NCBI GenBank assembly: GCA_948099385.1
Contig: CANUEZ040000196.1
Location: forward strand, 4,757,001-4,821,000
Direction: 5' to 3'
Source: Fasciola hepatica
Lineage: Eukaryota > Platyhelminthes > Trematoda > Plagiorchiida > Fasciolidae
Length of the DNA: 64,000 nucleotides
The notes under the pieces are model-generated. The model searched no databases, was not told where the DNA came from, and saw only the letters and a program-made list of their open reading frames with translations. Positions 24,704 through 64,000 of the stretch are shown here, piece by piece; position 1 is the first letter of the stretch; each line of letters opens with the position of its first letter. A program made the position numbers and the translations under genes.

Positions 24704-24762
24704 TGTATAATATGATTGATCATGCAGCTTGAACGCTCAACTGAGCATTGAAATCCATGGAA

Positions 24763-24812
24763 GCACTGTACAGCTGTTTCATCCTCTAAGGGACTCGACT
24801 CATCAGCAGTGC
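24763..24812 (-). ncRNA. Hammerhead ribozyme, type I, reference copy
   Basis: Read on the - strand from 24812 down: GCACTG (stem I, 5' side), CTGATGA (core C3-A9, + strand 24800-24806), 19 nt of stem II and its loop, GAAA (G12, A13, A14, A15.1; + strand 24777-24780), the palindrome ACAGCTGT (stem III, sharing A15.1), then A17 and CAGTGC (stem I, 3' side). GCACTG and CAGTGC are perfect complements, giving a 6-bp stem I that is the open end, hence type I. Cleavage is expected 3' of A17, between + strand positions 24769 and 24768. Stem II is weak: either GTC with GAT (3 bp including G-U, 13-nt loop) or GTCC with GGAT (4 bp) after a 5-nt insertion. Stem III has no room for a normal loop, so the active form may be a dimer. 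Confidence 0.88.
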
Positions 24813-24860
24813 ACATCGACCGAGCCCCCACGAGCACTCCAACAACCGGTGAACCATTGT

Positions 24861-24929
24861 GAATCGAACAACTTAACAACACAAGGCTATCCGGGATGGC
24901 TCTCAACGCTTTGTTCAACATCTACACTA
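24861..24929 (-). promoter_or_regulatory. Possible internal Pol III-type A and B boxes of B monomers
   Basis: On the - strand TAGTGTAGATG (+ 24919-24929) fits the A-box consensus TRGYNNARNNG at every fixed position, and GTTCGATTC (+ 24861-24869) fits the B-box consensus GWTCRANNC. They are 49 nt apart in the correct order and lie upstream of the ribozyme. Most B monomers keep both; some lose the B box (GTTCCATTC, for example the monomer with ribozyme at 46781). The aligned A family breaks both (TAGTGTATATG, GTTCGACTG). Both consensus motifs are short and degenerate, no tRNA-like fold is evident, and this may be chance. Confidence 0.25.
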
Positions 24930-25629
24930 CATGATATAGCACCCTTCCCAAACTCGCTTTTAATTTGAATGGTAAGAACCAGCTTCGCGCACACCGATCG
25001 ACTCCTATGATGGATGACTTCTCTGTAGGGGCCTAAGTACAACCAACGCATTCCCAAATGAACAACCTACACAGCTTCCTTACTATGCATGCAATTGATT
25101 AGTAGTACGAGATTAGATTAGATCAGATTAGATTAGATTTGTATAATATGATTGATCATGCAGCTTGAACGCTCAACTGAGCATTGAAATCCATGGAAGC
25201 ACTGTACAGCTGTTTCATCCTCTAAGGGACTCGACTCATCAGCAGTGCACATCGACCGAGCCCCCACGGGCACTCCAACAACCGGTGAACCATTGTGAAT
25301 CGAACAACTCAACAACACAAGGCTCTCCGGGATGGCTCTCAACGCTTTGTTCAACATCTACGCTACATGATATAGCACCCTTCCCAAACTCGCTTTAAAT
25401 TTGAATGGTAAGAACCAGCTTCGCGCACACCGATCGACTCCTATGATGGATGACTTCTCTGTAGGGGCGTAAGTACAACCAACGCATTCACAAATGAACA
25501 ACCTACACAGCTTCCTTACTATGCATGCAATTGATTAGTAGTACGAGATTAGATTAGATTAGATTAGATTTGTATAATATGATTGATCATGCAGCTTGAA
25601 CGCTCAACTGAGCATTGAAATCCATGGAA

Positions 25630-25679
25630 GCACTGTACATCTGTTTCATCCTCTAAGGGACTCGACTCATCAGCAGTGC
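25630..25679 (-). ncRNA. Hammerhead variant with non-palindromic stem III
   Basis: Stem III reads ACAGATGT instead of ACAGCTGT. The two outer pairs and the third A-T pair remain, but the centre becomes G-A, so a dimeric stem III would hold tandem mismatches. The same change occurs in the copies at 38592, 54978 and 59723. Confidence 0.72.
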
Positions 25680-26430
25680 ACATCGACCGAGCCCCCACGG
25701 GCACTCCAACAACCGGTGAACCATTGTGAATCGAACAACTTAACAACACAAGGCTATCCGGGATGGCTCTCAACGCTTTGTTCAACATCTACACTACATG
25801 ATATAGCACCCTTCCCAAACTCGCTTCAAATTTGAATGGTAAGAACCAGCTTCGCGCACAACGATCGACTCGTATGATGGATGACTTCTCTGTAGGGGCC
25901 TAAGTACAACCAACGCATTCCCAAATGAACAACCTACACAGCTTCCTTACTATGCATGCAATTGATTAGTAGTACGAGATTAGATTAGATTATATTAGAT
26001 TTGTATAATATGATTGTTCATGCAGCTTGAACGCTCAACTGAGCATTGAAATCCATGGAAGCACTGTACAGCTGTTTCATCCTCTAAGGGACTCGACTCA
26101 TCAGCAGTGCACATCGACCGAGCCCCCACGGGCACTCCAACAACCGGTGAACCATTGTGAATCGAACAACTTAACAACACAAGTCTATCCGGGATGGCTC
26201 TCAACGCTTTGTTCAACATCTACACTACATGATATAGTACCCTTCCCAAACTCGCTTCAAATTTGAATGGTAAGAACCAGCTTCGCGCACACCGATCGAC
26301 TCCTATGATGGATGACTTCTCTGTAGGGGCCTAAGTACAACCAACGCATTCACAAATGAACAACCTACACAGCTTCCTTACTATGCATGCAATTGATTAG
26401 TAGTACGAGATTAGATTAGATTAGATTAGA

Positions 26431-29300
26431 TTAGATTTGTATAATATGATTGATCATGCAGCTTGAACGCTCAACTGAGCATTGAAATCCATGGAAGCAC
26501 TGTACAGCTGTTTCATCCTCTAAGGGACTCGACTCATCAGCAGTGCACATCGACCGAGCCGCCACGGGCACTCCAACAACCGGTGAAACATTGTGAATCG
26601 AACAACTTAACAACACAAGGCTATCCGGGATGGCTATCAACGCTTTGTTCAACATCTACACTACATGATACAGTACCCTTCCCAAACTCGCTTCAAATTT
26701 GAATGGTAAGAACCAGCTTCGCGCACACCGATCGACTCGTATGATGGATGACTTCTCTGTAGGGGCCTAAGTACAACCAACGCATTCCTAAATGAACAAC
26801 CTACACAGCTCCCTTACTATGCATGCAAATGATTAGTAGTACGAGATTAGATTAGATTAGATTAGATTAGATTTGTATAATATGATTGATCATGCAGCTT
26901 GAACGCTCAACTGAGCATTGAAATCCATGGAAGCACTGTACAGCTGTTTCATCCTCTAAGGGACTCGACTCATCAGCAGTGCACATCGACCGAGCCCCCA
27001 AGGGCACTCCAACAACCGGTGAACCATTGTGAATCGAACAACTTAACAACACAAGGCTATCCGGGATGGCTCTCAACGCTTTGTTCAACATCTACACTAC
27101 ATGATATAGCACCCTTCCGAAACTCGCTTCAAATTTGAATGGTAAGAACCAGCTTCGCGCAAACCGATCGACTCCTATGATGGATGACTTCTCTGTAGGG
27201 GCCTAAGTACAACCAACGCATTCCCAAATGAAAAACCTACACAGCTTCCTTACTATGCATGCAATTGATTAGTAGTACGAGATTAGATCAGATTAGATTA
27301 GATTTGTACAATATGATTGATCATGCAGCTTGAACGCTCAACTGAGCATTGAAATCCATGTAAGCACTGTACAGCTGTTTCATCCTCTAAGGGACTCGAC
27401 TCATCAGCAGTGCACATCGACCGAGCCCCCACGGGCACTCCAACAACCGGTGAACCATTGTGAATCGAACAACTTATCAACACAAGGCTATCCGGGATGG
27501 CTATCAACGCTTTGTTCAACATCTACACTACATGATATAGCACCGTTCCCAAACTCGCTTCAAATTTGAATGGTAAGAACCAGCTTCGCGCACACCGATC
27601 GACTCCTATGATGGATGACTTCTCTGTAGGGGCCTAAGTACAACCAACGCATTCCCAAATGAACAACCTACACAGCTTCCTTACTATGCATGCAATTGAT
27701 TAGTAGTACGAGATTAGATCAGATTAGATTAGATTTGTATAATATGATTGATCATGCAGCTTGAACGCTCAACTGAGCATTGAAATCCATGGAAGCACTG
27801 TACAGCTGTTTCATCCTCTAAGGGACTCGACTCATCAGCAGTGCACATCGACCGAGCCCCCACGGGCACTCCAACAACCGGTGAACCATTGTGAATCGAA
27901 CAACTTAACAACACAAGGCTATCCGGGATGGCTCTCAACGCTTTGTTCAACATCTACACTACATGATATAGCACCCTTCCCAAACTCGCTTCAAATTTGA
28001 ATGGTAAGAACCAGCTTCGCGCACACCGATCGACTCCTATGATGGATGACTTCTCTGTAGGGGCCTAAGTACAACCAACGCATTCACAAATGAACAACCT
28101 ACACAGCTTCCTTACTATGCATGCAATTGATTAGTAGTACGAGATTAGATTAGATTAGATTAGATTAGATTTGTATAATATGATTGATCATGCAGCTTGA
28201 ACGCTCAACTGAGCATTGAAATCCATGGAAGCACTGTACAGCTGTTTCATCCTCTAAGGGACTCGACTCATCAGCAGTGCACATCGACCGAGCCCCCACG
28301 GGCACTCCAACAACCGGTGAAACATTGTGAATCGAACAACTTAACAACACAAGGCTATCCGGGATGGCTATCAACGCTTTGTTCAACATCTACACTACAT
28401 GATACAGTACCCTTCAAAAATTGGCTTCAAATTTGAATGGTAAGAACCAGCTTCGCGCACACCGATCGACTCCTATGATGGATGACTTCTCTGTAGGGGC
28501 CTAAGTACAACCAACGCATTCCTAAATGAACAACCTACACAGCTCCCTTACTATGCATGCAAATGATTAGTAGTACGAGATTAGATTAGATTAGATTAGA
28601 TTAGATTTGTATAATATGATTGATCATGCAGCTTGAACGCTCAACTGAGCATTGAAATCCATGGAAGCACTGTACAGCTGTTTCATCCTCTAAGGGACTC
28701 GACTCATCAGCAGTGCACATCGACCGAGCCCCCAAGGGCACTCCAACAACCGGTGAACCATTGTGAATCGAACAACTTAACAACACAAGGCTATCCGGGA
28801 TGGCTCTCAACGCTTTGTTCAACATCTACACTACATGATATAGCACCCTTCCGAAACTCGCTTCAAATTTGAATGGTAAGAACCAGCTTCGCGCAAACCG
28901 ATCGACTCCTATGATGGATGACTTCTCTGTAGGGGCCTAAGTACAACCAACGCATTCCCAAATGAAAAACCTACACAGCTTCCTTACTATGCATGCAATT
29001 GATTAGTAGTACGAGATTAGATTAGATTAGATTAGATTAGATTTGTACAATATGATTGATCATGCAGCTTGAACGCTCAACTGAGCATTGAAATCCATGT
29101 AAGCACTGTACAGCTGTTTCATCCTCTAAGGGACTCGACTCATCAGCAGTGCACATCGACCGAGCCCCCACGGGCACTCCAACAACCGGTGAACCATTGT
29201 GAATCGAACAACTTATCAACACAAGGCTATCCGGGATGGCTATCAACGCTTTGTTCAACATCTACACTACATGATATAGCACCGTTCCCAAACTCGCTTC
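26431..29300 (-). repeat. Four-monomer duplication in B (period 1734-1739 bp)
   Basis: The monomer series beginning at about 26.4 kb is repeated from about 28.1 kb. Shared rare markers are GAAACATTGTG (26585 and 28319), ATGATACAGTACCC (26666 and 28400), CCCCCAAGGGC (26995 and 28729) and TTTGTACAATATG (27303 and 29042). The period grows from 1734 to 1739 where one ATTAG unit was gained. Confidence 0.85.
27231..27235 (-). terminator. T5 run on the B sense strand (about ten monomers)
   Basis: Most B monomers read AAATGAACAACC on the + strand here. About ten read AAATGAAAAACC, giving TTTTT on the - strand: near 27231, 28965, 30694, 32418, 33708, 36296, 37593, 41480, 43204 and 44936. A T run of this length would stop RNA polymerase III if that enzyme is used; otherwise it has no evident meaning. 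Confidence 0.2.
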
Positions 29301-31688
29301 AAATTTGAATGGTAAGAACCAGCTTCGCGCACACCGATCGACTCCTATGATGGATGACTTCTCTGTAGGGGCCTAAGTACAACCAACGCATTCCCAAATG
29401 AACAACCTACACAGCTTCCTTACTATGCATGCAATTGATTAGTAGTACGAGATTAGATCAGATTAGATTAGATTTGTATAATATGATTGATCATGCAGCT
29501 TGAACGCTCAACTGAGCATTGAAATCCATGGAAGCACTGTACAGCTGTTTCATCCTCTAAGGGACTCGACTCATCAGCAGTGCACATCGACCGAGCCCCC
29601 ACGGGCACTCCAACAACCGGTGAACCATTGTGAATCGAACAACTTAACAACACAAGGCTATCCGGGATGGCGCTCAACGCTTTGTTCAACATCTACACTA
29701 CATGATATAGCACCCTTCCCAAACTCGCTTCAAATTTGAATGGTAAGAACCAGCTTCGCGCACACCGATCGACTCCTATGATGGATGACTTCTCTGTAGG
29801 GGCCTAAGTACAACCAACGCATTCACAAATGAACAACCTACACAGCTTCCCTACTATGCATGCAATTGATTAGTAGTACGAGATTAGATTAGATTAGATT
29901 AGATTTGTATAATATGATTGATCATGCAGCTTGAACGCTCAATAGAGCATTGAAATCTATGGAAGCACTGTACAGCTGTTTCATCCTCTAAGGGACTCGA
30001 CTCATCAGCAGTGCACATCGACCGAGCCCCCACGGGCACTCCAACAACCGGTGAACCATTGTGAATCGAACAACCTAACAACACAAGGCTATCCGGGATG
30101 GCTATCAACGCTTTGTTCAACATCTACACTACATGATATAGCACCGTTCCCAAACTCGCTTCAAATTTGAATGGTTAGAACCAGCTTCGCGCACACCGAT
30201 CGACTCCTATGATGGATGACTTCTCTGTAGGGGCCTAAGTACAACCAACGCATTCCCAAATGAACAACCTACACAGCTTCCTTACTATGCATGCAAATGA
30301 TTAGTAGTACGAGATTAGATCAGATTAGATTAGATTTGTATAATATGATTGATCATGCAGCTTGAACGCTCAACTGAGCATTGAAATCCATGGAAGCACT
30401 GTACAGCTGTTTCATCCTCTAAGGGACTCGACTCATCAGCAGTGCACATCGACCGAGCCCCCACGGGCACTCCAACAACCGGTGAACCATTGTGAATCGA
30501 ACAACTTAACAACACAAGTCTATCCGGGATGGCTATCAACGCTTTGTTCAACATCTACACTACATGATATAGCACCCTTCCGAAACTCGCTTCAAATTTG
30601 AATGGTAAGAACCAGCTTCGCGCACACCGATCGACTCCTATGATGGATGACTTCTCTGTAGGGGCCTAAGTACAACCAACGCATTCCCAAATGAAAAACC
30701 TACGCAGCTTCCTTACTATGCATGCAATTGATTAGTAGTACGAGATAAGTTCAGATTAGATTAGATTTGTATAATATGATTGATCATGCAGCTTGAACGC
30801 TCAACTGAGCATTGAAATCCATGGAAGCACTGTACAGCTGTTTCATCCTCTAAGGGACTCGACTCATCAGCAGTGCACATCGACCGAGCAACCACGGGCA
30901 CTCCAACAACCGGTGAACCATTGTGAATCGAACAACTTATCAACACAAGGCTATCCGGGATGGCTATCAACGCTTTGTTCAACATCTACACTACATGATA
31001 TAGCACCCTTCCCAAACTCGCTCTAAATTTGAATGGTAAGAACCAGCTTCGCGCACACCGATCGACTCCTATGATGGATGACTTCTCTGTAGGGGCCTAA
31101 GTACAACCAACGCATTCCCAAATGAACAACCTACACAGCTTCCTTACTATGCATGCAATTGATTAGTAGTACGAGATTAGATTAGATTAGATTAGATTTG
31201 TATAATATGATTGATCATGCAGCTTGAACGCTCAACTGAGCATTGAAATCCATGGAAGCACTGTACAGCTGTTTCATCCTCTAAGGGACTCGACTCATCA
31301 GCAGTGCACATCGACCGAGCCCCCACGGGCACTCCAACAACCGGTGAACCATTGTGAATCGAACAACTTAACAACACAAGTCTATCCGGGATGGCTATCA
31401 ACGCTTTGTTCAACATCTACACTACATGATATAGCACCCTTCCGAAACTCGCTTCAAATTTGAATGGTAAGAACCAGCTTCGCGCACACCGATCGACTCC
31501 TATGATGGATGACTTCTCTGTAGGGGCCTAAGTACAACCAACGCATTCCCAAATGAACAACCTACACAGCTTCCTTACTATGCATGCAAATGATTAGTAG
31601 TACGAGATTAGATCAGATTAGATTAGATTTGTATAATATGATTGATCATGCAGCTTGAACGCTCAACTGAGCATTGAAATCCATGGAA

Positions 31689-31738
31689 GCACTGAACAGC
31701 TGTTTCATCCTCTAAGGGACTCGACTCATCAGCAGTGC
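31689..31738 (-). ncRNA. Hammerhead variant with U17 at the cleavage site
   Basis: The cleavage dinucleotide is TT in place of TA on the - strand (+ strand CACTGAACAG). Hammerheads accept A, C or U at position 17, so cleavage is allowed but U17 is usually slower. Core boxes are intact. Confidence 0.75.
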
Positions 31739-32978
31739 ACATCGACCGAGCAACCACGGGCACTCCAACAACCGGTGAACCATTGTGAATCGAACAACTT
31801 AACAACACAAGGCTATCCGGGATGGCTCTCAACGCTTTGTTCAACATCTACACTACATGATATAGCACCCTTCCCAAACTCGCTTCAAATTTGAATGGTA
31901 AGAACCAGCTTCGCGCATACCGATCGACTCCTATGATGGATGACCTCTCTGTAGGGGCCTAAGTACAACCAACGCATTCCCAAATGAACAACCTACACAG
32001 CTTCCCTACTATGCATGCAATTGATTAGTAGTACGAGATTAGATTAGATTAGATTAGATTTGTATAATATGATTGATCATGCAGCTTGAACGCTCAATTG
32101 AGCATTGAAATCCATGGAAGCACTGTACAGCTGTTTCATCCTCTAAGGGACTCGACTCATCAGCAGTGCACATCGACCGAGCCCCCACGGGCACTCCAAC
32201 AACCGGTGAACCATTGTGAATCGAACAACTTAACAACACAAGGCTATCCGGGATGGCTCTCAACGCTTTGTTCAACATCTACACTACATGATATAGCACC
32301 GTTCCCAAACTCGCTTCAAATTTGAATGGTTAGAACCAGCTTCGCGCACACCGATCGACTCCTATGATGGATGACTTCTCTGTAGGGGCCTAAGTACAAC
32401 CAACGCATTCCCAAATGAAAAACCTACACAGCTTCCTTACTATGCATGCAATTGATTAGTAGTACGAGATTAGATCAGATCAGATTAGATTTGTATATGA
32501 TTGATCATGCAGCTTGAACGCTCAACGGAGCATTGAAATCCATGGAAGCACTGTACAGCTGTTTCATCCTCTAAGGGACTCGACTCATCAGCAGTGCACA
32601 TCGACCGAGCCCCCACGGGCACTCCAACAACCGGTGAACCATTGTGAATCGAACAACTTAACAACACAAGGCTATCCGGGATGGCTCTCAACGCTTTGTT
32701 CAACATCTACACTACATGATATAGCACCCTTCCGAAACTCGCTTCAAATTTGAATGGTAAGAACCAGCTTCGCGCACACCGATCGACTCCTATGATGGAT
32801 GACTTCTCTGTAGGGGCGTAAGTACAACCAACGCATTCACAAATGAACAACCTACACAGCTTCCTTACTATGCATGCAATTGATTAGTAGTACGAGATTA
32901 GATTAGATTAGATTAGATTTGTATAATATGATTGATCATGCAGCTTGAACGCTCAACTGAGCATTGAAATCCATGGAA

Positions 32979-33028
32979 GCACTGAACAGCTGTTTCATCC
33001 TCTAAGGGACTCGACTCATCAGCAGTGC
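32979..33028 (-). ncRNA. Hammerhead variant with U17 at the cleavage site
   Basis: Same A17-to-U change as the copy at 31689, exactly one 1290-bp trimer period away, so inherited by segmental amplification. Confidence 0.75.
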
Positions 33029-35789
33029 ACATCGACCGAGCCCCCACGGGCACTCCAACAACCGGTGAACCATTGTGAATCGAACAACTTAACAACACAA
33101 GGCTATCCGGGATGGCTATCAACGCTTTGTTCAACATCTACACTACATGATATAGCACCCTTCCCAAACTCGCTTCAAATTTGAATGGTAAGAACCAGCT
33201 TCGCGCATACCGATCGACTCCTATGATGGATGACCTCTCTGTAGGGGCCTAAGTACAACCAACGCATTCCCAAATGAACAACCTACACAGCTTCCCTACT
33301 ATGCATGCAATTGATTAGTAGTACGAGATTAGATTAGATTAGATTAGATTTGTATAATATGATTGATCATGCAGCTTGAACGCTCAATTGAGCATTGAAA
33401 TCCATGGAAGCACTGTACAGCTGTTTCATCCTCTAAGGGACTCGACTCATCAGCAGTGCACATCGACCGAGCCCCCACGGGCACTCCAACAACCGGTGAA
33501 CCATTGTGAATCGAACAACTTAACAACACAAGGCTATCCGGGATGGCTCTCAACGCTTTGTTCAACATCTACACTACATGATATAGCACCGTTCCCAAAC
33601 TCGCTTCAAATTTGAATGGTTAGAACCAGCTTCGCGCACACCGATCGACTCCTATGATGGATGACTTCTCTGTAGGGGCCTAAGTACAACCAACGCATTC
33701 CCAAATGAAAAACCTACACAGCTTCCTTACTATGCATGCAATTGATTAGTAGTACGAGATTAGATCAGATCAGATTAGATTTGTATATGATTGATCATGC
33801 AGCTTGAACGCTCAACGGAGCATTGAAATCCATGTAAGCACTGTACAGCTGTTTCATCCTCTAAGGGACTCGACTCATCAGCAGTGCACATCGACCGAGC
33901 CCCCACGGGCACTCCAACAACCGGTGAACCATTGTGAATCGAACAACTTAACAACACAAGGCTATCCGGGATGGCTCTCAACGCTTTGTTCAACATCTAC
34001 ACTACATGATATAGCACCCTTCCCAAACTCGCTTCAAATTTGAATGGTAAGAACCAGCTTCGCGCACACCGATCGACTCCTATGATGGATGACTTCTCTG
34101 AAGGGGCCTAAGTACAACCAACGCATTCCCAAATGAACAACCTACACAGCTTCCTTACTATGCATGCAATTGATTAGTAGTACGAGATTAGATCAGATCA
34201 GATTAGATTTGTATAATATGATTGATCATGCAGCTTGAACGCTCAACTGAGCATTGAAATCCATGGAAGCACTGTACAGCTGTTTCATCCTCTAAGGGAC
34301 TCGACTCATCAGCAGTGCACATCGACCGAGCCCCCACGGGCACTCCAACAACCGGTGAACCATTGTGAATCGAACAACTTAACAACACAAGGCTATCCGC
34401 GATGGCTCTCAACGCTTTGTTCAACATCTACACTACATGATATAGCACCGTTCCCAAACTCGCTTCAAATTTGAATGGTAAGAACCAGCTTCGCGCACAC
34501 CGATCGACTCGTATGATGGATGACTTCTCTGTAGGGGCCTAAGTACAACCAACGCATTCCCAAATGAACAACCTACACAGCTTCCTTACTATGCATGCAA
34601 TTGATTAGTAGTACGAGATTAGAACAGATTAGATTAGATTTGTATAATATGATTGATCATGCAGCTTGAACGCTCAACTGAGCATTGAAATCCATGGAAG
34701 CACTGTACAGCTGTTTCATCCTCTAAGGGACTCGACTCATCAGCAGTGCACATCGACCGAGCCCCCACGGGCACTCCAACAACCGGTGAACCATTGTGAA
34801 TCGAACAACTTAACAACACAAGGCTATCCGGGATGGCTCTCAACGCTTTGTTCAACATCTACACTACATGATATAGCACCGTTCCCAAACTCGCTTCAAA
34901 TTTGAACGGTAAGAACCAGCTTCGCGCACACCGATCGACTCCTATGATGGATGACTTCTCTGTAGGGGCCTAAGTACAACCAACGCATTCACAAATGAAC
35001 AACCTACACAGCTTCCTTACTATGCATGCAATTGATTAGTAGTGCGAGATTAGTTTAGATAAGATTAGATTAGATTTGTATAATATGATTGATCATGCAG
35101 CTTGAACGCTCAACTGAGCATTGAAATCCATGGAAGCACTGTACAGCTGTTTCATCCTCTAAGGGACTCGACTCATCAGCAGTGCACATCGACCGAGCCC
35201 CCACGGGCACTCCAACAACCGGTGAACCATTGTGAATCGAACAACTTAACAACACAAGGCTATCCGGGATGGCTATCAACGCTTTGTTCAAAATCTACAC
35301 TACGTGATATAGCACCCTTCCCAAACTCGCTTCAAATTTGAATGGTAAGAACCAGCTTCGCGCACACCGATCGACTCCTATGATGGATGACTTCTCTGTA
35401 GTGGCGTAAGTACAATCAACGCATTCCCAAATGAACAACCTACACAGCTTCCTTACTATGCATGCAATTGATTAGTAGTACGAGATTAGATTAGATTAGA
35501 TTAGATTTGTATAATATGATTGATCATGCAGCTTGAACGCTCAACTGAGCATTGAAATCCATGGAAGCACTGTACAGCTGTTTCATCCTCTAAGGGACTC
35601 GACTCATCAGCAGTGCACATCGACCGAGCAACCACGGGCACTCCAACAACCGGTGAACCATTGTGAATCGAACAACTTAACAACACAAGGCTATCCGGGA
35701 TGGCTCTCAACGCTTTGTTCAACATCTACACTACATGATATAGCACCGTTCCCAAACTCGCTTCAAATTTGAATGGTAAGAACCAGCTT

Positions 35790-38390
35790 CGCGCAGACCG
35801 ATCGACTCCTATGATGGATGACTTCTCTGTAGGGGCCTAAGTACAACCAACGCATTCCCAAATGAACAACCTACACAGCTTCCCTACTATGCATGCAATT
35901 GATTAGTAGTACGAGATTAGATTAGATTAGATTAGATTTGTATAATATGATTGATCATGCAGCTTGAACGCTCAATTGAGCATTGAAATCCATGGAAGCA
36001 CTGTACAGCTGTTTCATCCTCTAAGGGACTCGACTCATCAGCAGTGCACATCGACCGAGCCCCCACGGGCACTCCAACAACCGGTGAACCATTGTGAATC
36101 GAACAACTTAACAACACAAGGCTATCCGGGATGGCTCTCAACGCTTTGTTCAACATCTACACTACATGATATAGCACCCTTCCCAAACTCGCTTCAAATT
36201 TGAATGGTAAGAACCAGCTTCGCGCACACCGATCGACTCCTATGATGGATGACTTCTCTGTAGGGGCCTAAGTACAACCAACGCATTCCCAAATGAAAAA
36301 CCTACACAGCTTCCTTACTATGCATGCAATTGATTAGTAGTACGAGATTAGATCAGATCAGATTAGATTTGTATAATATGATTGATCATGCAGCTTGAAC
36401 GCTCAACTGAGCATTGAAATCCATGGAAGCACTGTACAGCTGTTTCATCCTCTAAGGGACTCGACTCATCAGCAGTGCACATCGACCGAGCCCCCACGGG
36501 CACTCCAACAACCGGTGAACCATTGTGAATCGAACAACTTAACAACACAAGGCTATCCGGGATGGCTCTGAACGCTTTGTTCAACATCTACACTACATGA
36601 TATAGCACCCTTCCGAAACTCGCTTCAAATTTGAATGGTAAGAACCAGCTTCGCGCACACCGATCGACTCCTATGATGGATGACTTCTCTGTAGGGGCCT
36701 AAGTGAAACCAACGCATTCCCAAATGAACAACCTACACAGCTTCCTTACTATGCATGCAATAATAAGTAGTACGAGATTAGATCAGATCAGATTAGATTA
36801 GATTTGTATAATATGATTGATCATGCAGCTTGAACGCTCAACTGAGCATTGAAATCCATGGAAGCACTGTACAGCTGTTTCATCCTCTAAGGGACTCGAC
36901 TCATCAGCAGTGCACATCGACCGAGCCCCCACGGGCACTCCAACAACCGGTGAACCATTGTGAATCGAACAACTTAACAACACAAGGCTATCCGGGATGG
37001 CTCTCAACGCTTTGTTCAACATCTACACTACATGATATAGCACCGTTCCCAAACTCGCTTCAAATTTGAATGGTAAGAACCAGCTTCGCGCAGACCGATC
37101 GACTCCTATGATGGATGACTTCTCTGTAGGGGCCTAAGTACAACCAACGCATTCCCAAATGAACAACCTACACAGCTTCCCTACTATGCATGCAATTGAT
37201 TAGTAGTACGAGATTAGATTAGATTAGATTAGATTTGTATAATATGATTGATCATGCAGCTTGAACGCTCAATTGAGCATTGAAATCCATGGAAGCACTG
37301 TACAGCTGTTTCATCCTCTAAGGGACTCGACTCATCAGCAGTGCACATCGACCGAGCCCCCACGGGCACTCCAACAACCGGTGAACCATTGTGAATCGAA
37401 CAACTTAACAACACAAGGCTATCCGGGATGGCTCTCAACGCTTTGTTCAACATCTACACTACATGATATAGCACCCTTCCCAAACTCGCTTCAAATTTGA
37501 ATGGTAAGAACCAGCTTCGCGCACACCGATCGACTCCTATGATGGATGACTTCTCTGTAGGGGCCTAAGTACAACCAACGCATTCCCAAATGAAAAACCT
37601 ACACAGCTTCCTTACTATGCATGCAATTGATTAGTAGTACGAGATTAGATCAGATCAGATTAGATTTGTATAATATGATTGATCATGCAGCTTGAACGCT
37701 CAACTGAGCATTGAAATCCATGGAAGCACTGTACAGCTGTTTCATCCTCTAAGGGACTCGACTCATCAGCAGTGCACATCGACCGAGCCCCCACGGGCAC
37801 TCCAACAACCGGTGAACCATTGTGAATCGAACAACTTAACAACACAAGGCTATCCGGGATGGCTCTGAACGCTTTGTTCAACATCTACACTACATGATAT
37901 AGCACCCTTCCGAAACTCGCTTCAAATTTGAATGGTAAGAACCAGCTTCGCGCACACCGATCGACTCCTATGATGGATGACTTCTCTGTAGGGGCCTAAG
38001 TGAAACCAACGCATTCCCAAATGAACAACCTACACAGCTTCCTTACTATGCATGCAATAATAAGTAGTACGAGATTAGATCAGATCAGATTAGATTAGAT
38101 TTGTATAATATGATTGATCATGCAGCTTGAACGCTCAACTGAGCATTGAAATCCATGGAAGCACTGTACAGCTGTTTCATCCTCTAAGGGACTCGACTCA
38201 TCAGCAGTGCACATCGACCGAGCCCCCACGGGCACTCCAACAACCGGTGAACCATTGTGAATCGAACAACTTAACAACACAAGGCTATCCGGGATGGCTC
38301 TCAACGCTTTGTTCAACATCTACACTACATGATATAGCACCGTTCCCAAACTCGCTTCAAATTTGAATGGTAAGAACCAGCTTCGCGCAC
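35790..38390 (-). repeat. Three-monomer duplication in B (period 1297 bp)
   Basis: CGCGCAGACCG (near 35792 and 37089), GCTCTGAACGC (near 36565 and 37862), AAGTGAAACC (near 36702 and 37999) and GCAATAATAAGTAG recur at 1297 bases. Confidence 0.83.
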
Positions 38391-40750: not shown

Positions 40751-40800
40751 GCACTGTACAGCTGTTTCATCCTCTAAGGGACTCGACTGATCAGCAGTGC
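40751..40800 (-). pseudogene. Hammerhead copy with G8-to-C core change
   Basis: The core box reads CTGATCA instead of CTGATGA (the + strand has G in place of C at 40789). G8 pairs with C3 and its 2'-hydroxyl acts as the general acid in the solved full-length hammerhead structures, and C3 is unchanged, so this copy should be inactive. The change also creates a TGATCA palindrome (BclI site) that marks the variant. Confidence 0.75.
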
Positions 40801-41612: not shown

Positions 41613-41662
41613 GCACTGTACAGCTGTTTCATCCTCTAAGGGACTCGACTGATCAGCAGTGC
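41613..41662 (-). pseudogene. Hammerhead copy with G8-to-C core change
   Basis: Same CTGATCA core as the 40751 copy, two monomers away. The surrounding monomer pair is part of an 862-bp dimer period, so the mutation was probably copied by amplification and not gained twice. Predicted inactive. Confidence 0.75.
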
Positions 41663-50658: not shown

Positions 50659-50708
50659 GCACTGTACAGCAGTTTCATCCTCTAAGTGACTCGACTCATC
50701 AGCAGTGC
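50659..50708 (-). ncRNA. Hammerhead copy that is a crossover chimera
   Basis: On the + strand this copy has both CAGCAGTTTC (stem III region) and CTAAGTGACTC (stem II region). In the related block the first change lies in the monomer with ribozyme at 60585 and the second in the next one, at 61016. The copy here looks like a fusion of the two, with the breakpoint in the few bases between the markers. CTGATGA and GAAA are intact; stem III keeps only two outer pairs (ACTGCTGT). Confidence 0.6.
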
Positions 50709-52387: not shown

Positions 52388-52437
52388 GCACTGTACAGCT
52401 GTTTCATCCTCTAAGGGACTCGACTGATCAGCAGTGC
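52388..52437 (-). pseudogene. Hammerhead copy with G8-to-C core change
   Basis: Core box CTGATCA. Its partner in the 10-kb duplication, at 62740, has the normal CTGATGA although both share the rare CATCTTCACTAC marker downstream. The core base was therefore changed or corrected after the duplication. Predicted inactive. Confidence 0.75.
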
Positions 52438-53248
52438 ACATCGACCGAGCCCCCACGGGCACTCCAACAACCGGTGAACCATTGTGAATCGAACAACTTA
52501 ACAACACAAGGCTATCCGGGATGGCTATCAACGCTTTGTTCAACATCTTCACTACATGATATAGCACCCTTCCCAAACTCGCTTCAAATTTGAATGGTAA
52601 GAACCAGCTTCGCGCACACCGATCGACTCCTATGATGGATGACTTCTCTGTAGGGGCCTAAGTACAACCAACGCATTCCCAAATGAACAACCTACACAGC
52701 TTCCTTACTATGCATGCAATTGATTAGTAGTACGAGATTAGATCAGATTAGATTAGATTTGTATAATATGATTGATCATGCAGCTTGAACGCTCAACTGA
52801 GCATTGAAATCCATGGAAGCACTGTACAGCTGTTTCATCCTCTAAGGGACTCGACTCATCAGCAGTGCACATCGACCGAGCCCCCACGGGCACTCCAACA
52901 ACCGGTGAACCATTGTGAATGAAACAACTTAACAACACAAGGCTATCCGGGATGGCTATCAACGCTTTGTTCAACATCTACACTACATGATATAGCACCC
53001 TTCCCAAACTCTCTTCAAATTTGAACGGTAAGAACCAGCTTCGCGCACACCGATCGACTCCTATGATGGATGACTTCTCTGTAGGGGCCTAAGTACAACC
53101 AACGCATTCCCAAATGAACAACCTACACAGCTTCCTTACTATGCATGCAATAATTAGTACTACGAGATTAGATCAGATTAGATTAGATTTGTATAATATG
53201 ATTGATCATGCAGCTTGAACGCTCAACTGAGCATTGAAATCCATGGAA

Positions 53249-53298
53249 GCATTGTACAGCTGTTTCATCCTCTAAGGGACTCGACTCATCAGCAGTGC
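53249..53298 (-). ncRNA. Hammerhead variant with a stem I mismatch
   Basis: The 3' side of stem I is CAATGC instead of CAGTGC, putting A opposite C at the third pair. The catalytic boxes are intact. The same variant occurs at 61447 and 63601, within monomers sharing the marker ACTACATCATATAGTAC. Confidence 0.72.
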
Positions 53299-53679
53299 AC
53301 ATCGACCGAGCCCCCACGGGCACTCCAACAACCGGTGAACCATTGTGAATCGAACAACTTAACAACACAAGGCTATCCGGGATGGCTATCAACGCTTTGT
53401 TCAACGTATACACTACATCATATAGTACTCTTCCAAAACTCGCTTCAAATTTGAATGGTAAGAACCAGCTTCGCGCACATCGATCGACTCCTATGATGGA
53501 TGACTTCTCTGTAGGGGCCTATGTACAACCAACGCATTCCCAAATGAACAACCTACACGGCTTCCTTACTAAGCATGCAATTGATTAGTAGTACGAGATT
53601 AGATCAGATTAGATTAGATTTGTATAATATGATTGATCATGCAGCTTGAACGCTCAACTGAGCATTGAAATCCATGGAA

Positions 53680-53729
53680 GCACTGAACAGCTGTTTCATC
53701 CTCTAAGGGACTCGACTCATCAGCAGTGC
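53680..53729 (-). ncRNA. Hammerhead variant with U17 at the cleavage site
   Basis: A17 is replaced by U (+ strand CACTGAACAG). Core boxes are intact. Activity is expected to be reduced, not abolished. Confidence 0.72.
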
Positions 53730-55408
53730 ACATCGACCGAGCCCCCACGGGCACTCCAACAACCGGTGAACCATTGTGAATCGAACAACTTAACAACACA
53801 AGGCTATCCGTGATGGCTCTCAACGCTTTGTTCAACATCTACACTACATGATATAGCACCCTTCCCAAACTCGCTTCAAATTTGAATGGTAAGAACCAGC
53901 TTCGCGCACACCGATCGACTCCTATGATGGATGACTTCTCTGTAGGGGCCTAAGTACAACCAACGCATTCCCAAATGAACAACCTACACAGCTTCCTTAC
54001 TATGCGTGCAATTGATTAGTAGTACGAGATTAGATCAGATTAGATTAGATTTGTATAATATGATTGATCATGCAGCTTGAACGCTCAACTGAGCATTGAA
54101 ATCCATGGAAGCACTGTACAGCTGTTTCATCCTCTAAGGGACTCGACTCATCAGCAGTGCACATCGACCGAGCCCCCACGAGCACTCCAACAACCGGTGA
54201 ACCATTGTGAATCGAACAACTTAACAACACAAGGCTATCCGGGATGGCTCTCAACGCTTTGTTCAACATCTACACTACATGATATAGCACCCTTCCCAAA
54301 CTCGCTTCAAATTTGAATGGTAAGAACCAGCTTCGCGCACACCGATCGACTCCTATGATGGATGACTTCTCTGTAGGGGCCTAAGTACAACCAACGCATT
54401 CCCAAATGAACAACCTACACAGCTTCCTTACTATGCATGCAATTGATTAGTAGTACGAGATTAGATTAGATTAGATTAGATTAGATTTGTATAATATGAT
54501 TGATCATGCAGCTTGAACGCTCAACTGAGCACTGAAATCCATGGAAGCACTGTACAGCTGTTTCATCCTCTAAGGGACTCGACTCATCAGCAGTGCACAT
54601 CGACCGAGCCCCCACGGGCACTCCAACAACCGGTGAACCATTGTGAATCGAACAACTTAACAACACAAGGCTATCCGGGATGGCTATCAACGCTTTGTTC
54701 AACATCTACACTACATGATATAGCACCCTTCCCAAACTCGCTTCAAATTTGAATGGTAAGAACCAGCTTCGCGCACACCGATCGACTCCTATGATGGATG
54801 ACTTCTCTGTAGGGGCCTAAGTACAACCAACGCATTCCCAAATGAACAACCTACACAGCTTCCTTACTATGCATGCAATTGATTAGTAGTACGAGATTAG
54901 ATCAGATTAGATTAGATTTGTATAATATGATTGATCATGCAGCTTGAACGCTCAACTGAGCATTGAAATCCATGGAAGCACTGTACATCTGTTTCATCCT
55001 CTAAGGGACTCGACTCATCAGCAGTGCACATCGACCGAGCCCCCACGGGCACTCCAACAACCGGTGAACCATTGTGAATGGAACAACTTAACAAAACAAG
55101 GCTATCCGGGATGGCTATCAACGCTTTGTTCAACATCTACACTACATGATATAGCACCCTTCCCAAACTCTCTTCAAATTTGAATGGTAAGAACCAACTT
55201 CGCGCACACCGATCGACTCCTATGATGGATGACTTCTCTGTAGGGGCCTAAGTACAACCAACGCATTCCCAAATGAACAACCTACACAGCTTCCTTACTA
55301 TGCATGCAATTGATTAGTAGTACGAGATTAGATCAGATTAGATTAGATTTGTATAATATGATTGATCATGCAGCTTGAACGCTCAACTGAGCATTGAAAT
55401 CCATGGAA

Positions 55409-55458
55409 GCACTGTACAGCTGTTTCATCCTCTAAGGGACTCGACTGATCAGCAGTGC
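55409..55458 (-). pseudogene. Hammerhead copy with G8-to-C core change
   Basis: Core box CTGATCA. The monomer also carries ACAAAACAAAGC, shared with the G8-to-C copy at 41613, indicating a common source monomer. Predicted inactive. Confidence 0.75.
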
Positions 55459-57419
55459 ACATCGACCGAGCCCCCACGGGCACTCCAACAACCGGTGAAC
55501 CATTGTGAATCGAACAACTTAACAAAACAAAGCTATCCGGGATGGCTATCAACGCTTTGTTCAACATCTACACTACATGATATAGCACCCTTCCCAAACT
55601 CGCTTCAAATTTGAATGGTAAGAACCAGCTTCGCGCACACCGATCGACTCCTATGATGGATGACTTCTCTGTAGGGGCCTAAGTACAACCAACGCATTCC
55701 TAAATGAACAACCTACACAGCTTCCTTACTATGCATGCAATTGATTAGTAGTACGAGATTAGATCAGATCAGATTAGATTTGTATAATATGATTGATCAT
55801 GCAGCTTGAACGCTCAACTGAGCATTGAAATCCATGGAAGCACTGTACAGCTGTTTCATCCTCTAAGGGACTCGACTCATCAGCAGTGCACATCGACCGA
55901 GCCCACACGGGCACTCCAACAACCGGTGAACCATTGTGAATCGAACAACTTAACAACATAAGGCTATCCGGGATGGCTCTCAACGCTTTGTTCAACATCT
56001 ACACTACATGATATAGCACCCTTCCCAAACTGGCTTCAAATTTGAATGGTAAGAACCAGCTTCGCGCACACCGATCGACTCGTATGATGGATGACTTCTC
56101 TGTAGGGGCCTAAGTTCAACCAACGCATTCCCAAATGAACAACCTACACAGCTTCCCTACAATGCATGCAATTGATTAGTAGTACGAGATTAGATCAGAT
56201 TAGATTAGATTTGTATAATATGATTGATCATGCAGCTTGAACGCTCAACTGAGCATTGAAATCCATGGAAGCACTGTACAGCTGTTTCATCCTCTAAGGG
56301 ACTCGACTCATCAGCAGTGCACATCGACCGAGCCCCCACGGGCACTCCAACAACCGGTGAACCATTGTGAATCGAACAACTTAACAACACAAGGCTATCC
56401 GGGATGGCTATCAACGCTTTGTTCACCATCTACACTACATGATATAGCACCCTTCCCAAATTCGCTTCAAATTTGAATGGTAAGAACCAGCTTCGCGCAC
56501 ACCGATCGACTCCTATGATGGATGACTTCTCTGTAGGGGCCTAAGTACAACCAACGCATTCCCAAATGAACAACCTACACAGCTTCCTTACTATGCATGC
56601 AATTGATTAGTAGTACGAGATTAGATCAGATTAGATTAGATTTGTATAATATGATTGATCATGCAGCTTGAACGCTCAACTGAGCATTGAAATCCATGGA
56701 AGCACTGTACAGCTGTTTCATCCTCTAAGGGACTCGACTCATCAGCAGTGCACATCGACCGAGCCCCTACGGGCACTCCAACAACCGGTGAACCATTGTG
56801 AATCGAACAACTTAACAACACAAGGCTATCCGGGATGGCTCTCAACGCTTTGTTCAACATCTACACTACATGATATAGCACCCTTCCCAAACTGGCTTCA
56901 AATTTGAATGGTAAGAACCAGCTTCGCGCACACCGATCGACTCGTATGATGGATGACTTCTCTGTAGGGGCCTAAGTTCAACCAACGCATTCCCAAATGA
57001 ACAACCTACACAGCTTCCCTACAATGCATGCAATTGATTAGTAGTACGAGATTAGATCAGATTAGATTAGATTTGTATAATATGATTGATCATGCAGCTT
57101 GAACGCTCAACTGAGCATTGAAATCCATGGAAGCACTGTACAGCTGTTTCATCCTCTAAGGGACTCGACTCATCAGCAGTGCACATCGACCGAGCCCCCA
57201 CGGGCACTCCAACAACCGGTGAACCATTGTGAATCGAACAACTTAACAACACAAGGCTATCCGGGATGGCTATCAACGCTTTGTTCACCATCTACACTAC
57301 ATGATATAGCACCCTTCCCAAATTCGCTTCAAATTTGAATGGTAAGAACCAGCTTCGCGCACACCGATCGACTCCTATGATGGATGACTTCTCTGTAGGG
57401 GCCTAAGTACAACCAACGC

Positions 57420-60400
57420 ATTCCCAAATGAACAACCTACACAGCTTCCTTACTATGCATGCAATTGATTAGTAGTACGAGATTAGATCAGATTAGATTA
57501 GATTTGTATAATATGATTGATCATGCAGCTTGAACGCTCAACTGAGCATTGAAATCCATGGAAGCACTGTACAGCTGTTTCATCCTCTAAGGGACTCGAC
57601 TCATCAGCAGTGCACATCGACCGAGCCCCTACGGGCACTCCAACAACCGGTGAACCATTGTGAATCGAACAACTTAACAACACAAGGCTATCCGGGATGG
57701 CTATCAACGCTTTGTTCAACATCTACACTACATGATATAGCACCGTTCCCAAACTCGCTTCAAATTTGAATGGTAAGAACCAGCTTCGCGCACATCGATC
57801 GACTCGTATGATGGATGACTTCTCTGTAAGGGCCTAAGTACAACCAACGCATTCCCAAATGAACAACCTACACAGCTTCCTTACTATGCATGCAATTGAT
57901 TAGTCGTACGAGATTAGATTAGATTAGATTAGATTAGATTTGTATAATATGATTGATCATGCAGCTTGAACGCTCAACTGAGCATTGAAATCCATGGAAG
58001 CACTGTACAGCTGTTTCATCCTCTAAGGGACTCGACTCATCAGCAGTGCACATCGACCGAGCCCCCACGGGCACTCCAACAACCGGTGAACCATTGTGAA
58101 TCGAACAACTTAACAACACAAGGCTATCCGGGATGGCTATCAACGCTTTGTTCAACATCTACACTACATGATATAGCACCCTTCCCAAACTCGCTTCAAA
58201 TTTGAATGGTAAGAACCAGCTTCGCGCACACCGATCGACTCCTATGATGGATGATTTCTCTGTAGGGGCCTAAGTACAACCAACGCATTCCCAAATGAAC
58301 AACCTACACAGCTTCCTTACTATGCATGCAATTGATTAGTAGTACGAGATTAGATCAGATTAGATTAGATTTGTATAATATGATTGATCATGCAGCTTGA
58401 ACGCTCAACTGAGCATTGAAATCCATGGAAGCACTGTACAGCTGTTTCATCCTCTAAGGGACTCGACTGATCAGCAGTGCACATCGACCGAGCCCCCACG
58501 GGCACTCCAACAACCGGTGAACCATTGTGAATCGAACAACTTAACAACACAAGGCTATCCGGGATGGCTCTCAACGCTTTGTTCAACATCTACACTACAT
58601 GATATAGCACCCTTCCCAAACTCGCTTCAAATTTGAATGGTAAGAACCAGCTTCGCGCACACCGATCGACTCCTATGATGGATGACTTCTCTGTAGGGGC
58701 CTAAGTACAACCAACGCATTCCCAAATGAACAACCTACACAGCTTCCCTACAATGCATGCAATAATTAGTAGTACGAGATTAGATCAGATCAGATTAGAT
58801 TTGTATAATATGATTGATCATGCAGCTTGAACGCTCAACTGAGCATTGAAATCCATGGAAGCACTGTACAGCTGTTTCATCCTCTAAGGGACTCGACTCA
58901 TCAGCAGTGCACATCGACCGAGCCCCCACGGGCACTCCAACAACCGGTGAACCATTGTGAATCGAACAACTTAACAACACAAGGCTATCCGGGATGGCTA
59001 TCAACGCTTTGTTCAACATCTACACTACATGATATAGCACCCTTCCGAAACTCGCTTCAAATTTGAATGGTAAGAACCAGCTTCGCGCACACCGATCGAC
59101 TCCTATGATGGATGACTTCTCTGTAGGGGCCTAAGTACAACCAACGCATTCCCAAATGAACAACCTACACAGCTTCCTTAATATGCATGCAATTGATTAG
59201 TAGTACGAGATAAGTTCAGTTCAGATTAGATTTGTATAATATGATTGATCATGCAGCTTGAACGCTCAACTGAGCATTGAAATCCATGGAAGCACTGTAC
59301 AGCTGTTTCATCCTCTAAGGGACTCGACTCATCAGCAGTGCACATCGACCGAGCCCCCACGGGCACTCCAACAACCGGTGAACCATTGTGAATCGAACAA
59401 CTTAACAACACAAGGCTATCCGGGATGGCTATCAACGCTTTGTTCACCATCTACACTACATGATATAGCACCCTTCCCAAACTCGCTTCAAATTTGAATG
59501 GTAAGAACCAGCTTCGCGCACACCGATCGACTCCTATGATGGATGACTTCTCTGTAGGGGCCTGAGTACAACCAACGCATTCCCAAATGAACAACCTACA
59601 CAGCTTCCTTACTATGCATGCAATTGATTAGTAGTACGAGATTAGATTAGATTAGATTAGATTTGTATAATATGATTGATCATGCAGCTTGAACGCTCAA
59701 CTGAGCATTGAAATCCATGGAAGCACTGTACATCTGTTTCATCCTCTAAGGGACTCGACTCATCAGCAGTGCACATCGACCGAGCCCCCACGGGCACTCC
59801 AACAACCGGTGAACCATTGTGAATCGAACAACTTAACAACACAAGGCTATCCGGGATGGCTATCAACGCTTTGTTCAACATCTACACTACATGATATAGC
59901 ACCCTTCCCAAACTCGCTTCAAATTTGAATGGTAAGAACTAGCTTCGCGCACATCGATCGACTCGTATGATGGATGACTTCTCTGTAGGGGCCTAAGTAC
60001 AACCAACGCATTCCCAAATGAACAACCTACACAGCTTCCTTACTATGCATGCAATTGATTAGTAGTACGAGATTAGATCAGATTAGATTAGATTTGTATA
60101 ATATGATTGATCATGCAGCTTGAACGCTCAACTGAGCACTGAAATCCATGGAAGCACTGTACAGCTGTTTCATCCTCTAAGGGACTCGACTCATCAGCAG
60201 TGCACATTGACCGAGCCCCCACGGGCACTCCAACAACCAGTGAACCATTGTGAATCGAACAACTTAACAACACAAGGCTATCCGGGATGGCTATCAACGC
60301 TTTGTTCAACATCTACACTACATGATATAGCACGCTTCCCAAACTCGCTTCAAATTTGAATGGTAAGAACCAGCTTCGCGCACACCGATCGACTCGTATG

Positions 60401-63400
60401 ATGGATGACTTCTCTGTAGGGGCCTAAGTACAACCAACGCATTCCCAAATGAACAACCTACACAGCTTCCTTACTATGCATGCAATTGATTAGTAGTACG
60501 AGATTAGATTAGATTAGATTAGATTTGTATAATATGATTGATCATGCAGCTTGAACGCTCAACTGAGCATTGAAATCCATGGAAGCACTGTACAGCAGTT
60601 TCATCCTCTAAGGGACTCGACTCATCAGCAGTGCACATCGACCGAGCCCCCACGAGCACTCCAACAACCGGTGAACCATTGTGAATCGAACAACTTAACA
60701 ACACAAGTCTATCCGGGATGGCTATCAACGCTTTGTTCAACATCTACACTACATGATATAGCACCCTTCCCAAACTCGCTTCAAATTTGAATGGTAAGAA
60801 CCAGCTTCGCGCACACCGATCGACTCCTATGATGGATGACTTCTCTGTAGGGGCCTAAGTACAACCAACGCATTCCCAAATGAACAACCTACACAGCTTC
60901 CTTACTATGCATGCAATTGATTAGTAGTACGAGATTAGATCAGATTAGATTAGATTTGTATAATATGATTGATCATGCAGCTTGAACGCTCAACTGAGCA
61001 TTGAAATCCATGGAAGCACTGTACAGCTGTTTCATCCTCTAAGTGACTCGACTCATCAGCAGTGCACATCGACCGAGCCCCCACGGGCACTCCAACAACC
61101 GGTGAACCATTGTGAATCGAACAACCTAACAACGCAAGGCTATCCGGGATGGCTATCAACGCTTTGTTCAACATCTACACTACATGATATAGCACCCTTC
61201 CCAAACTCGCTTCAAATTTGAATGGTAAGAACCAGCTTCGCGCACACCGATCGACTCCTATGATGGATGACTTCTCTGTAGGGGCCTAAGTACAACCAAC
61301 GCATTCCCAAATGAACAACCTACACAGCTTCCTTACTATGCATGCAAATGATTAGTAGTACGAGATTAGATCAGATTAGATTAGATTTGTATAATATGAT
61401 TGATCATGCAGCTTGAACGCTCAACTGAGCATTAAAATCCATGAAAGCATTGTACAGCTGTTTCATCCTCTAAGGGACTCGACTCATCAGCAGTGCACAT
61501 CGACCGAGCCCCCACGGGCACTCCAACAACCGGTGAACCATTGTGAATGGAACAACTTAACAACACAAGGCTATCCGGGATGGCTATCAACGCTTTGTTC
61601 AACATATACACTACATCATATAGTACTCTTCCAAAACTCGCTTCAAATTTGAATGGTAAGAACCAGCTTCGCGCACACCGATCGACTCCTATGATGGATG
61701 ACTTCTCTGTAGGGGCCTAAGTACAACCAACGCATTCCCAAATGAACAACCTACACAGCTTCATTACTAAGCATGCAATTGATTAGTAGTACGAGATTAG
61801 ATTAGATTAGATTAGATTTGTATAATATGATTGATCATGCAGCTTGAACGCTCAACTGAGCATTGAAATCCATGGAAGCACTGTACAGCTGTTTCATCCT
61901 CTAAGGGACTCGACTCATCAGCAGTGCACATCGACCGAGCCCCCACGGGCACTCCAACAACCGGTGAACCATTGTGAATGGAACAACTTAACAACACAAG
62001 GCTATCCGGGATGGCTATCAACGCTTTGTTCAACATATACACTACATCATATAGTACTCTTCCAAAACTCGCTTCAAATTTGAATGGTAAGAACCAGCTT
62101 CGCGCACACCGATCGACTCCTATGATGGATGACTTCTCTGTAGGGGCCTAAGTACAACCAACGCATTCCCAAATGAACAACCTACACAGCTTCCCTACTA
62201 TGCATGCAATTGATTAGTAGTACGAGATTAGATCAGATTAGATTAGATTTGTATAATATGATTGATCATGCAGCTTGAACGCTCAACTGAGCATTGAAAT
62301 CCATGGAAGCACTGTACAGCTGTTTCATCCTCTAAGGGACTCGACTCATCAGCAGTGCACATCGACCGAGCAACCACGGGCACTCCAACAACCGGTGAAC
62401 CATTGTGAATCGAACAACTTAACAAAACAAGGCTATCCGGGATGGCTCTCAACGCTTTGTTCAACATCTACACTACATGATATAGCACCCTTCCCAATTT
62501 CGCTCCAAATTTGAATGGTAAGAACCAGCTTCGCGCACACCGATCGACTCGTATGATGGATGACTTCTCTGTAGGGGCCTAAGTACAACTAACGCATTCC
62601 CAAATGAACAACCTACACAGCTTCCCTACTATGCATGCAATTGATTAGTAGTACGAGATTAGATCAGATTATATTAGATTTGTATAATATGATTGATCAT
62701 GCAGCTTGAACGCTCAACTGAGCACTGAAATCCATGGAAGCACTGTACAGCTGTTTCATCCTCTAAGGGACTCGACTCATCAGCAGTGCACATCGACCGA
62801 GCCCCCACGGGCACTCCAACAACCGGTGAACCATTGTGAATCGAACAACTTAACAACACAAGGCTATCCGGGATGGCTATCAACGCTTTGTTCAACATCT
62901 TCACTACATGATATAGCACCCTTCCCAAACTCGCTTCAAATTTGAATGGTAAGAACCAGCTTCGCGCACACCGATCGACTCCTATGATGGATGACTTCTC
63001 TGTAGGGGCCTAAGTACAACCAACGCATTCCCAAATGAACAACCTACACAGCTTCCTTACTATGCATGCAATTGATTAGTAGTACGAGATTAGATCAGAT
63101 TAGATTAGATTTGTATAATATGATTGATCATGCAGCTTGAACGCTCAACTGAGCATTGAAATCCATGGAAGCACTGTACAGCTGTTTCATCCTCTAAGGG
63201 ACTCGACTCATCAGCAGTGCACATCGACCGAGCCCCCACGGGCACTCCAACAACCGGTGAACCATTGTGAATGGAACAACTTAACAAAACAAGGCTATCC
63301 GGGATGGCTATCAACGCTTTGTTCAACATCTACACTACATGATATAGCACCCTTCCCAAACTCTCTTCAAATTTGAACGGTAAGAACCAGCTTCGCGCAC

Positions 63401-64000
63401 ACCGATCGACTCCTATGATGGATGACTTCTCTGTAGGGGCCTAAGTACAACCAACGCATTCCCAAATGAACAACCTACACAGCTTCCTTACTATGCATGC
63501 AATAATTAGTACTACGAGATTAGATCAGATTAGATTAGATTTGTATAATATGATTGATCATGCAGCTTGAACGCTCAACTGAGCATTGAAATCCATGGAA
63601 GCATTGTACAGCTGTTTCATCCTCGAAGGGACTCGACTCATCAGCAGTGCACATCGACCGAGCCCCCACGGGCACTCCAACAACTGGTGAACCATTGTGA
63701 ATCGAACAACTTAACAACACAAGGCTATCCGGGATGGCTATCAACGCTTTGTTCAACATATACACTACATCATATAGTACTCTTCCAAAACTCGCTTCAA
63801 ATTTGAATGGTAAGAACCAGCTTCGCGCACACCGATCGACTCCTATGATGGATGACTTCTCTGTAGGGGCCTAAGTACAACCAACGCATTCCCAAATGAA
63901 CAACCTACACAGCTTCCCTACTATGCATGCAATTGATTAGTAGTACGAGATTAGATCAGATTAGATTAGATTTGTATAATATGATTGATCATGCAGCTTG
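57420..64000 (-). repeat. Large duplicated block in B, right copy
   Basis: This copy matches the 47.5-53.6 kb block but holds one extra monomer (ribozyme at 60585). The duplication unit is thus 23-24 monomers, about 10 kb. The window ends inside it. Confidence 0.83.
58431..58480 (-). pseudogene. Hammerhead copy with G8-to-C core change
   Basis: Core box CTGATCA. The matching monomer in the other half of the 10-kb duplication, at 48505, keeps CTGATGA. Predicted inactive. Confidence 0.75.

Follow-up and report, generated by a model that had tools for sequence, protein, structure and literature searches.

In Schistosoma mansoni, a SINE-like element derived from tRNA-Gln has been described that carries a hammerhead ribozyme (PMC2770079, PMC4918200, PMC8490949), and, as far as the cited portions of these accounts go, the Sm-alpha and Sj-alpha retroposons of schistosomes are short SINE-like elements with a type I hammerhead, while the W element, which is similar to Sm-alpha, measures 335 bp (PMC8490949). 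Hammerheads also lie within the monomers of satellites, and the passages cited name pDo500 of Dolichopoda, satellite 2 of newts and the W elements of S. mansoni (PMC2837043, PMC7229834, PMC8490949). A further group are the metazoan non-LTR retrozymes of Acropora, Mytilus and the axolotl, which share with the sequences described below a type I hammerhead, tandem repeats of 150–450 bp and a low GC content; in the same source, Penelope elements are named as a strong candidate for the mobilisation of retrozymes, a role that was proposed and not demonstrated (PMC7229834). The layout of Penelope insertions is illustrated by the examples given for Adineta, in which a pseudo-LTR is adjacent and inverted, a 31-bp tail is optionally present on one inverted copy, the target site duplications (TSDs) are 8 and 9 bp long and partial tandems occur (PMC3846280).

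In this study, we analysed a 64 kb stretch of the Fasciola hepatica genome (the window), which consists of two satellite arrays, A and B, that are inverted relative to each other. Array A occupies positions 1–24556 on the plus strand (TRF, period 423) and array B positions 24585–64000 with its sense strand on the minus strand (TRF, period 431); based on TRF and the sequence, the junction between them was placed at 24557–24584. The 90 B monomers cut from the window are 427–436 bp long, and 49 of them measure exactly 431 bp. Consensus sequences were built from these and from 57 A monomers, and since the two can be aligned to each other end to end, A and B are sister satellites. Between 24674 and 61818 the B monomers contain a stretch of 5–6 AGATT units, which appears as 23 TRF rows of period 5; this run is longer in the B consensus than in the consensus of A or of the dispersed element D described below. 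Array B extends past the window: of 26 probes of 450 bp each placed along this contig, 25 fell in A or B sequence, which was met in both orientations between 1.0 and 5.508 Mb, and the probe at 10 kb is neither. The A/B block is thus multi-megabase in size and possibly represents a centromere or sex-chromosome block. Over the 1.0–5.5 Mb of this contig, the type and orientation of the A/B blocks change on a scale of megabases. In the whole 1.50-Gb assembly, a 38-nt core word of the B type occurs 10,698 times and its reversed control 0 times.

A motif search located 91 type I-like hammerhead motifs in array B, one per monomer, between 24763 and 63650, and all within two mismatches of a 50-nt motif (69 match it exactly, 19 differ at one position and 3 at two). 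In a previous reading of the same DNA from its letters alone (the sequence-only reading), 91 such motifs had been reported on the minus strand only, and both the count and the coordinates are exact. The parts that it assigned to every monomer were confirmed to differing extents. GAAA, in the form GAAAC, is present in 91/91 copies, as is GTCGAGTC; the core CTGATGA is found in 86/91 and reads CTGATCA in the other 5, and a strict search for the core, GAAA, an NUH cleavage site and a six-pair stem I in which G-U was permitted recovered 83 of the 91 on the minus strand, 0 on the plus strand and 0 on either strand of 50 dinucleotide shuffles. The CTGATCA copies belong to the monomers starting at 58711, 55689, 52668, 41893 and 41031, three of which are spaced seven monomers apart and two of which are spaced two apart, a hint of a weak higher-order repeat. 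In the first B hammerhead (24763–24812, minus strand), 24812–24807 pair with 24768–24763 to form stem I, the core CTGATGA lies at 24806–24800 and is accompanied by GAAA and a palindromic stem III (ACAGCTGT), and cleavage is predicted between 24769 and 24768; these assignments are based on the sequence and the Rfam alignment, with the inner positions counted by hand.

At Rfam gathering scores, no family matched anywhere in the window. A search at a low threshold (E up to 10), which covered 23001–28000, gave Hammerhead_1 (RF00163) as the sole family matched, with seven matches at 24.5 bits and one at 22.9 bits; gathering requires 34, so that within this segment the best B score is 9.5 bits short. 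The covariance match above threshold by which the sequence-only reading had proposed to check its claim was therefore not obtained for B. The B motif nevertheless has the core, GAAA and NUH site of RF00163 and, in 83/91 copies, its stem I at the open end. The same test gave a different outcome for the dispersed relatives of B, among which Hammerhead_1 scored above gathering in 15 of 20 chosen D loci (17 matches, 34–36.7 bits; the loci were chosen from the better-preserved ones). Because relatives in the same genome reach these scores, the B motif is, judged from its sequence, a true homologue of the type I hammerhead.

What keeps B below the gathering score is stem II, in which GAGTC is doubled. 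This 5-bp tandem duplication, located by comparison with the dispersed consensus and counted by hand at 24792–24801 (minus strand) in the first copy, is present in all 91 copies of B in the window, and for this reason the claim of 91 working ribozymes in the array is unsupported. Stem II of B can form either three weak pairs (G-U, U-A and C-G) at the core or four pairs beyond a 5-nt insert. Folded as a hammerhead, the former, with the core-proximal stem GUC/GAU, has an energy of −5.6 kcal/mol, and the alternative, in which the stem GUCC/GGAU sits five nucleotides off the core, has −8.9 kcal/mol, the same as the intact D hammerhead; A evaluated as a hammerhead has −1.7 kcal/mol. The minimum-energy folds of the isolated segments are not hammerheads (−15.6 against −8.9 for D, −12.7 against −8.9 or −5.6 for B, and −11.9 for A), and since free segments favour other folds, energy alone is no proof of a hammerhead fold.

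According to the portions cited of a survey of hammerheads, stem II is frequently two pairs long and may open with a U10.1-U11.1 mismatch, a very short stem II is still able to function, and activity is reduced by insertions that follow A6 or lie at position 2 (PMC3088659). Slow cleavage of B is therefore conceivable, and we refer to its ribozyme as one that appears impaired rather than dead; a monomer on its own probably cleaves slowly or not at all, and the palindromic stem III could allow neighbouring copies to act as dimers. An alternative, in line with the sequence-only reading, is that array B works and yields self-cleaved RNAs of 431 nt that may be circular; three base pairs in stem II would then be enough, perhaps in dimers formed through stem III. 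The core is intact in 86/91 copies, two-pair stems and the U10.1-U11.1 mismatch are tolerated elsewhere (PMC3088659), and weak ribozymes that act as dimers are described for the axolotl (PMC7229834), as far as the cited parts of these sources go. Set against this are the best score of 9.5 bits under gathering, the competing stem II that puts a 5-nt insert at the core, where certain insertions reduce activity, the altered B box of its tRNA-like head (see below) and the absence of a stable circular fold: compared with 40 shuffles each, the circular fold of D is far stabler (z of −6.05), and those of B (−0.06) and A (−0.45) are not. We therefore regard a functional B array as rather doubtful. The hammerhead columns of B are also less variable than the remainder of the monomer (0.0056 versus 0.0150, window rank 0.049), which counts in favour of function and may reflect continuing selection on B; in A, the values are 0.0265 and 0.0262 (rank 0.49). 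Selection on the B ribozyme is not claimed from the variation within the array, as a rank of 0.049 is modest and the region of low variation reaches beyond the ribozyme.

Array A contains 58 positions on the plus strand that correspond to the hammerhead, none of which has CTGATGA (0/58) or GAAAC (0/58). In the A consensus, two core Gs are replaced by C, giving CTCATGA and CAAAC, and stem II carries the T form at position 10.1. On primary structure, the A hammerheads are core-dead relics. The sequence-only reading was accurate as to the motifs of B; absent from it were the duplication in stem II, the dead ribozyme in A and the extent of the array past the window.

That reading had also taken the monomer to be of an unrecognised kind. 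Instead, its most likely ancestor is a tRNA-hammerhead SINE of the Sm-alpha type, which is represented in the same genome by the dispersed element D. D has a consensus of 398 nt, in which a tRNA-like stretch ends 10 nt before a canonical type I hammerhead, and the A, B and D consensuses can be aligned over their whole length. The loci were found with the word GCACTGCTGATGAGTC, which has 19,237 matches genome-wide; 68 loci were read among the 100 listed, in contig order, and 64 were analysed after the exclusion of L004 and L059–L061 as overlapping or near-identical (63 without L030, a suspected duplicate of L029). As the loci were selected by a hammerhead word and in contig order, intact ribozymes are over-represented in this sample: a hammerhead test of our own was passed by 49/67 D copies with the word and by 8/18 without it. 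Exact D-type words number 19, and since the dispersed copies have diverged, setting these against the 10,698 B-type words is an unfair comparison of copy numbers. One locus, L051, has D-like units that contain the GAGTC duplication and, in one copy, also GTTGTTGGAGT of B, and on account of this combination we consider it an intermediate. No match was obtained when viral contigs were scanned with the hammerhead pattern.

At its head, the D consensus has both Pol III boxes, A and B. The B box at the tRNA position is intact in D (GTTCGAGTC) and altered in both satellites, to GTTGGAGTG in B and to GTTCGTGTC in A. Array A has kept the A box, into which 2 nt are inserted in B relative to the D consensus, and a looser B-box match, GTTCGATTC, is retained in B and also present in D. 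In the first B monomer, alignment to the D consensus and a box scan place the relic of the tRNA-like head at 24822–24900 on the minus strand, with ends counted by hand. The Rfam tRNA family has no match in the window at gathering, nor in 23001–28000 up to an E value of 10, and with their altered B box A and B therefore lack an intact Pol III head. In the 20 chosen D loci, tRNA scored above gathering six times in 4 loci, and both tRNA and Hammerhead_1 did so in 3 (L031, L048 and L050), which identifies D as a short non-coding element that unites a tRNA-derived head with a type I hammerhead. ARAGORN, applied to 6 loci, reported tRNA-like genes in L051 alone. D resembles Sm-alpha and Sj-alpha in the terms in which these have been described, and at about 400 nt it is longer than the W element (335 bp; PMC8490949). 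From retrozymes, which apparently have no promoters in the account cited (PMC7761336), D differs in its tRNA-like head, and B differs in that its monomer is longer than retrozyme RNAs of about 170–400 nt and its ribozyme is altered. A TTTT lies 8 nt past the hammerhead in D, TTTT runs are found in A and there are none in the B consensus; the TTTT of D could end Pol III transcription too early for a multimer to form, and we count it against the model proposed below.

The way in which D is inserted provides information on how it may have moved. Layouts were counted for copies of at least 84% identity, a threshold that we set, at 41 of the 64 loci (L069–L087 lie outside these counts): 26 are arranged head-to-head, 15 have a single arm and none is tail-to-tail. 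In the head-to-head copies the outer ends are 3′ ends on both sides, and in 21 of the 26 one of these lies at unit position 318–336 and the other at 342–366, with both at 342–366 in one copy and another end in 4; L045 (336 and 342) is borderline among the 21, in which L030 is included. The 3′ end of D accordingly has two alternative termini about 27 nt apart. At a score threshold that we set, TSDs of 11–14 bp (about 12) flank 12 of 25 head-to-head copies, counted without L030; among the single-arm copies there was one such case in 15, and among 189 mismatched control pairs there was none. The 13 head-to-head copies with no TSD at this threshold are counted against the model. The head-to-head arms look like terminal inverted repeats, and D might on that account be taken for a DNA transposon or MITE in which the hammerhead is incidental. 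The inner junction of the head-to-head copies, however, varies from copy to copy, 15 of the 41 have a single arm, 14 of 69 arms continue past the unit junction, and the tRNA head and the hammerhead both pass Rfam in 3 of the 20 chosen loci, and we consider this origin highly improbable.

LINE copies can have inverted 5′ arms, and the range of TSD lengths of LINE insertions includes 11–14 bp. The D copies might hence have been inserted by a LINE through twin priming, which likewise produces an inverted arm on the 5′ side and duplicates target sites of similar size. Twin priming places the 3′ terminus of an element at one outer end only. In D, in contrast, the outer ends are paired as 318–336 and 342–366 in 21 of 26 copies, which matches the tail of Penelope in the portions cited (PMC3846280), and a LINE appears to us an unlikely agent.

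D shares with Penelope-like retroelements (PLEs), as described in the same portions, the head-to-head copies, the tail at one end, short TSDs and partial tandems (PMC3846280). A Penelope element with this same insertion layout is present in the genome: L088 encodes 828 aa with RVT_1 and GIY-YIG domains, has a 224-bp inverted arm and ends that differ by 59 nt, and is flanked by a TSD of at least 11 bp as judged by eye. L088 was compared together with eight flanks of 1.35–1.45 kb (L089–L096) from the 90 listed GIY-YIG matches, which came from 150 scored among 302 candidates. D differs from PLEs in having no recognised protein, and it has no sequence in common with these nine loci, neither a shared 3′ end nor any other stretch; no hammerhead or D-like end was found in L088 or the eight flanks. 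The link between D and Penelope is thus structural only. Among 8000 candidates scored, the best named relative of the PLE comes from Schistosoma japonicum; further blood flukes, with a single fish among them, also rank near the top. The family of L088 comprises 828-aa frames, partial tandems of 2.75 kb and many copies of equal score, and because so many share an identical score it is probably young. In the literature searched, which covered few subscription journals and not a 2014 paper on hammerheads in Penelope elements, we found no description of the Penelope layout in hammerhead SINEs.

The arms also reveal something of the template. Besides the 14 of 69 that cross the unit junction, 12 are longer than the unit, and the D template was therefore multimeric or circular. 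Among 20 loci with at least two hammerheads, 7 have, within one insertion, some hammerheads with G and others with T at position 10.1 (L001, L011, L013, L019, L025, L047 and L058), and L051 mixes T and duplicated forms. In view of these mixtures we reject a monomer circle as the sole template; two stem II forms in single insertions point to a mixed multimer or to the copying of two RNAs.

Taken together, we think it probable that A and B grew from the dispersed, non-autonomous element D, which was moved by Penelope-type machinery, and later decayed as satellites. The homology of the three sequences, their structure, the counts and the sequence decay are the observations on which this model is based. 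According to the model, D would behave like an Sm-alpha SINE or a metazoan retrozyme and be transcribed into RNA longer than its unit, which the hammerhead would trim by cleavage of the multi-unit RNA. A Penelope-type reverse transcriptase and endonuclease would then insert the D RNA, leaving head-to-head arms, the longer end on one side and target duplications of about 12 bp. A short D tandem would subsequently be amplified at the DNA level into the multi-megabase satellites, in which promoter and ribozyme would no longer be maintained, so that A would lose two core Gs and B would fix the 5-bp duplication in stem II. The cited portions of the Sm-alpha and Sj-alpha accounts contain no mention of a Penelope-like layout or of altered-ribozyme satellites this large. 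B is set apart from pDo500, newt satellite 2 and the W elements by a ribozyme that is altered in 91/91 copies in the window, with intact relatives dispersed in the same genome.

A more far-reaching reading is in our view as likely as not: hammerhead SINEs, the animal retrozymes, may be moved by Penelope-type machinery. Its genomic trace would be the head-to-head arms, the pairing of a short with a long 3′ end and the duplications of about 12 bp, and satellites may be the endpoint that is reached once the ribozyme stops cutting multimers to units. One genome here holds the likely ancestor D, L051 as an intermediate, two descendants that became satellites and whose ribozymes were altered in different ways, and a Penelope element of the same layout. 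The enzyme that moves hammerhead SINEs thus becomes a testable question, as does a link between the loss of efficient self-cleavage and the growth of satellites.
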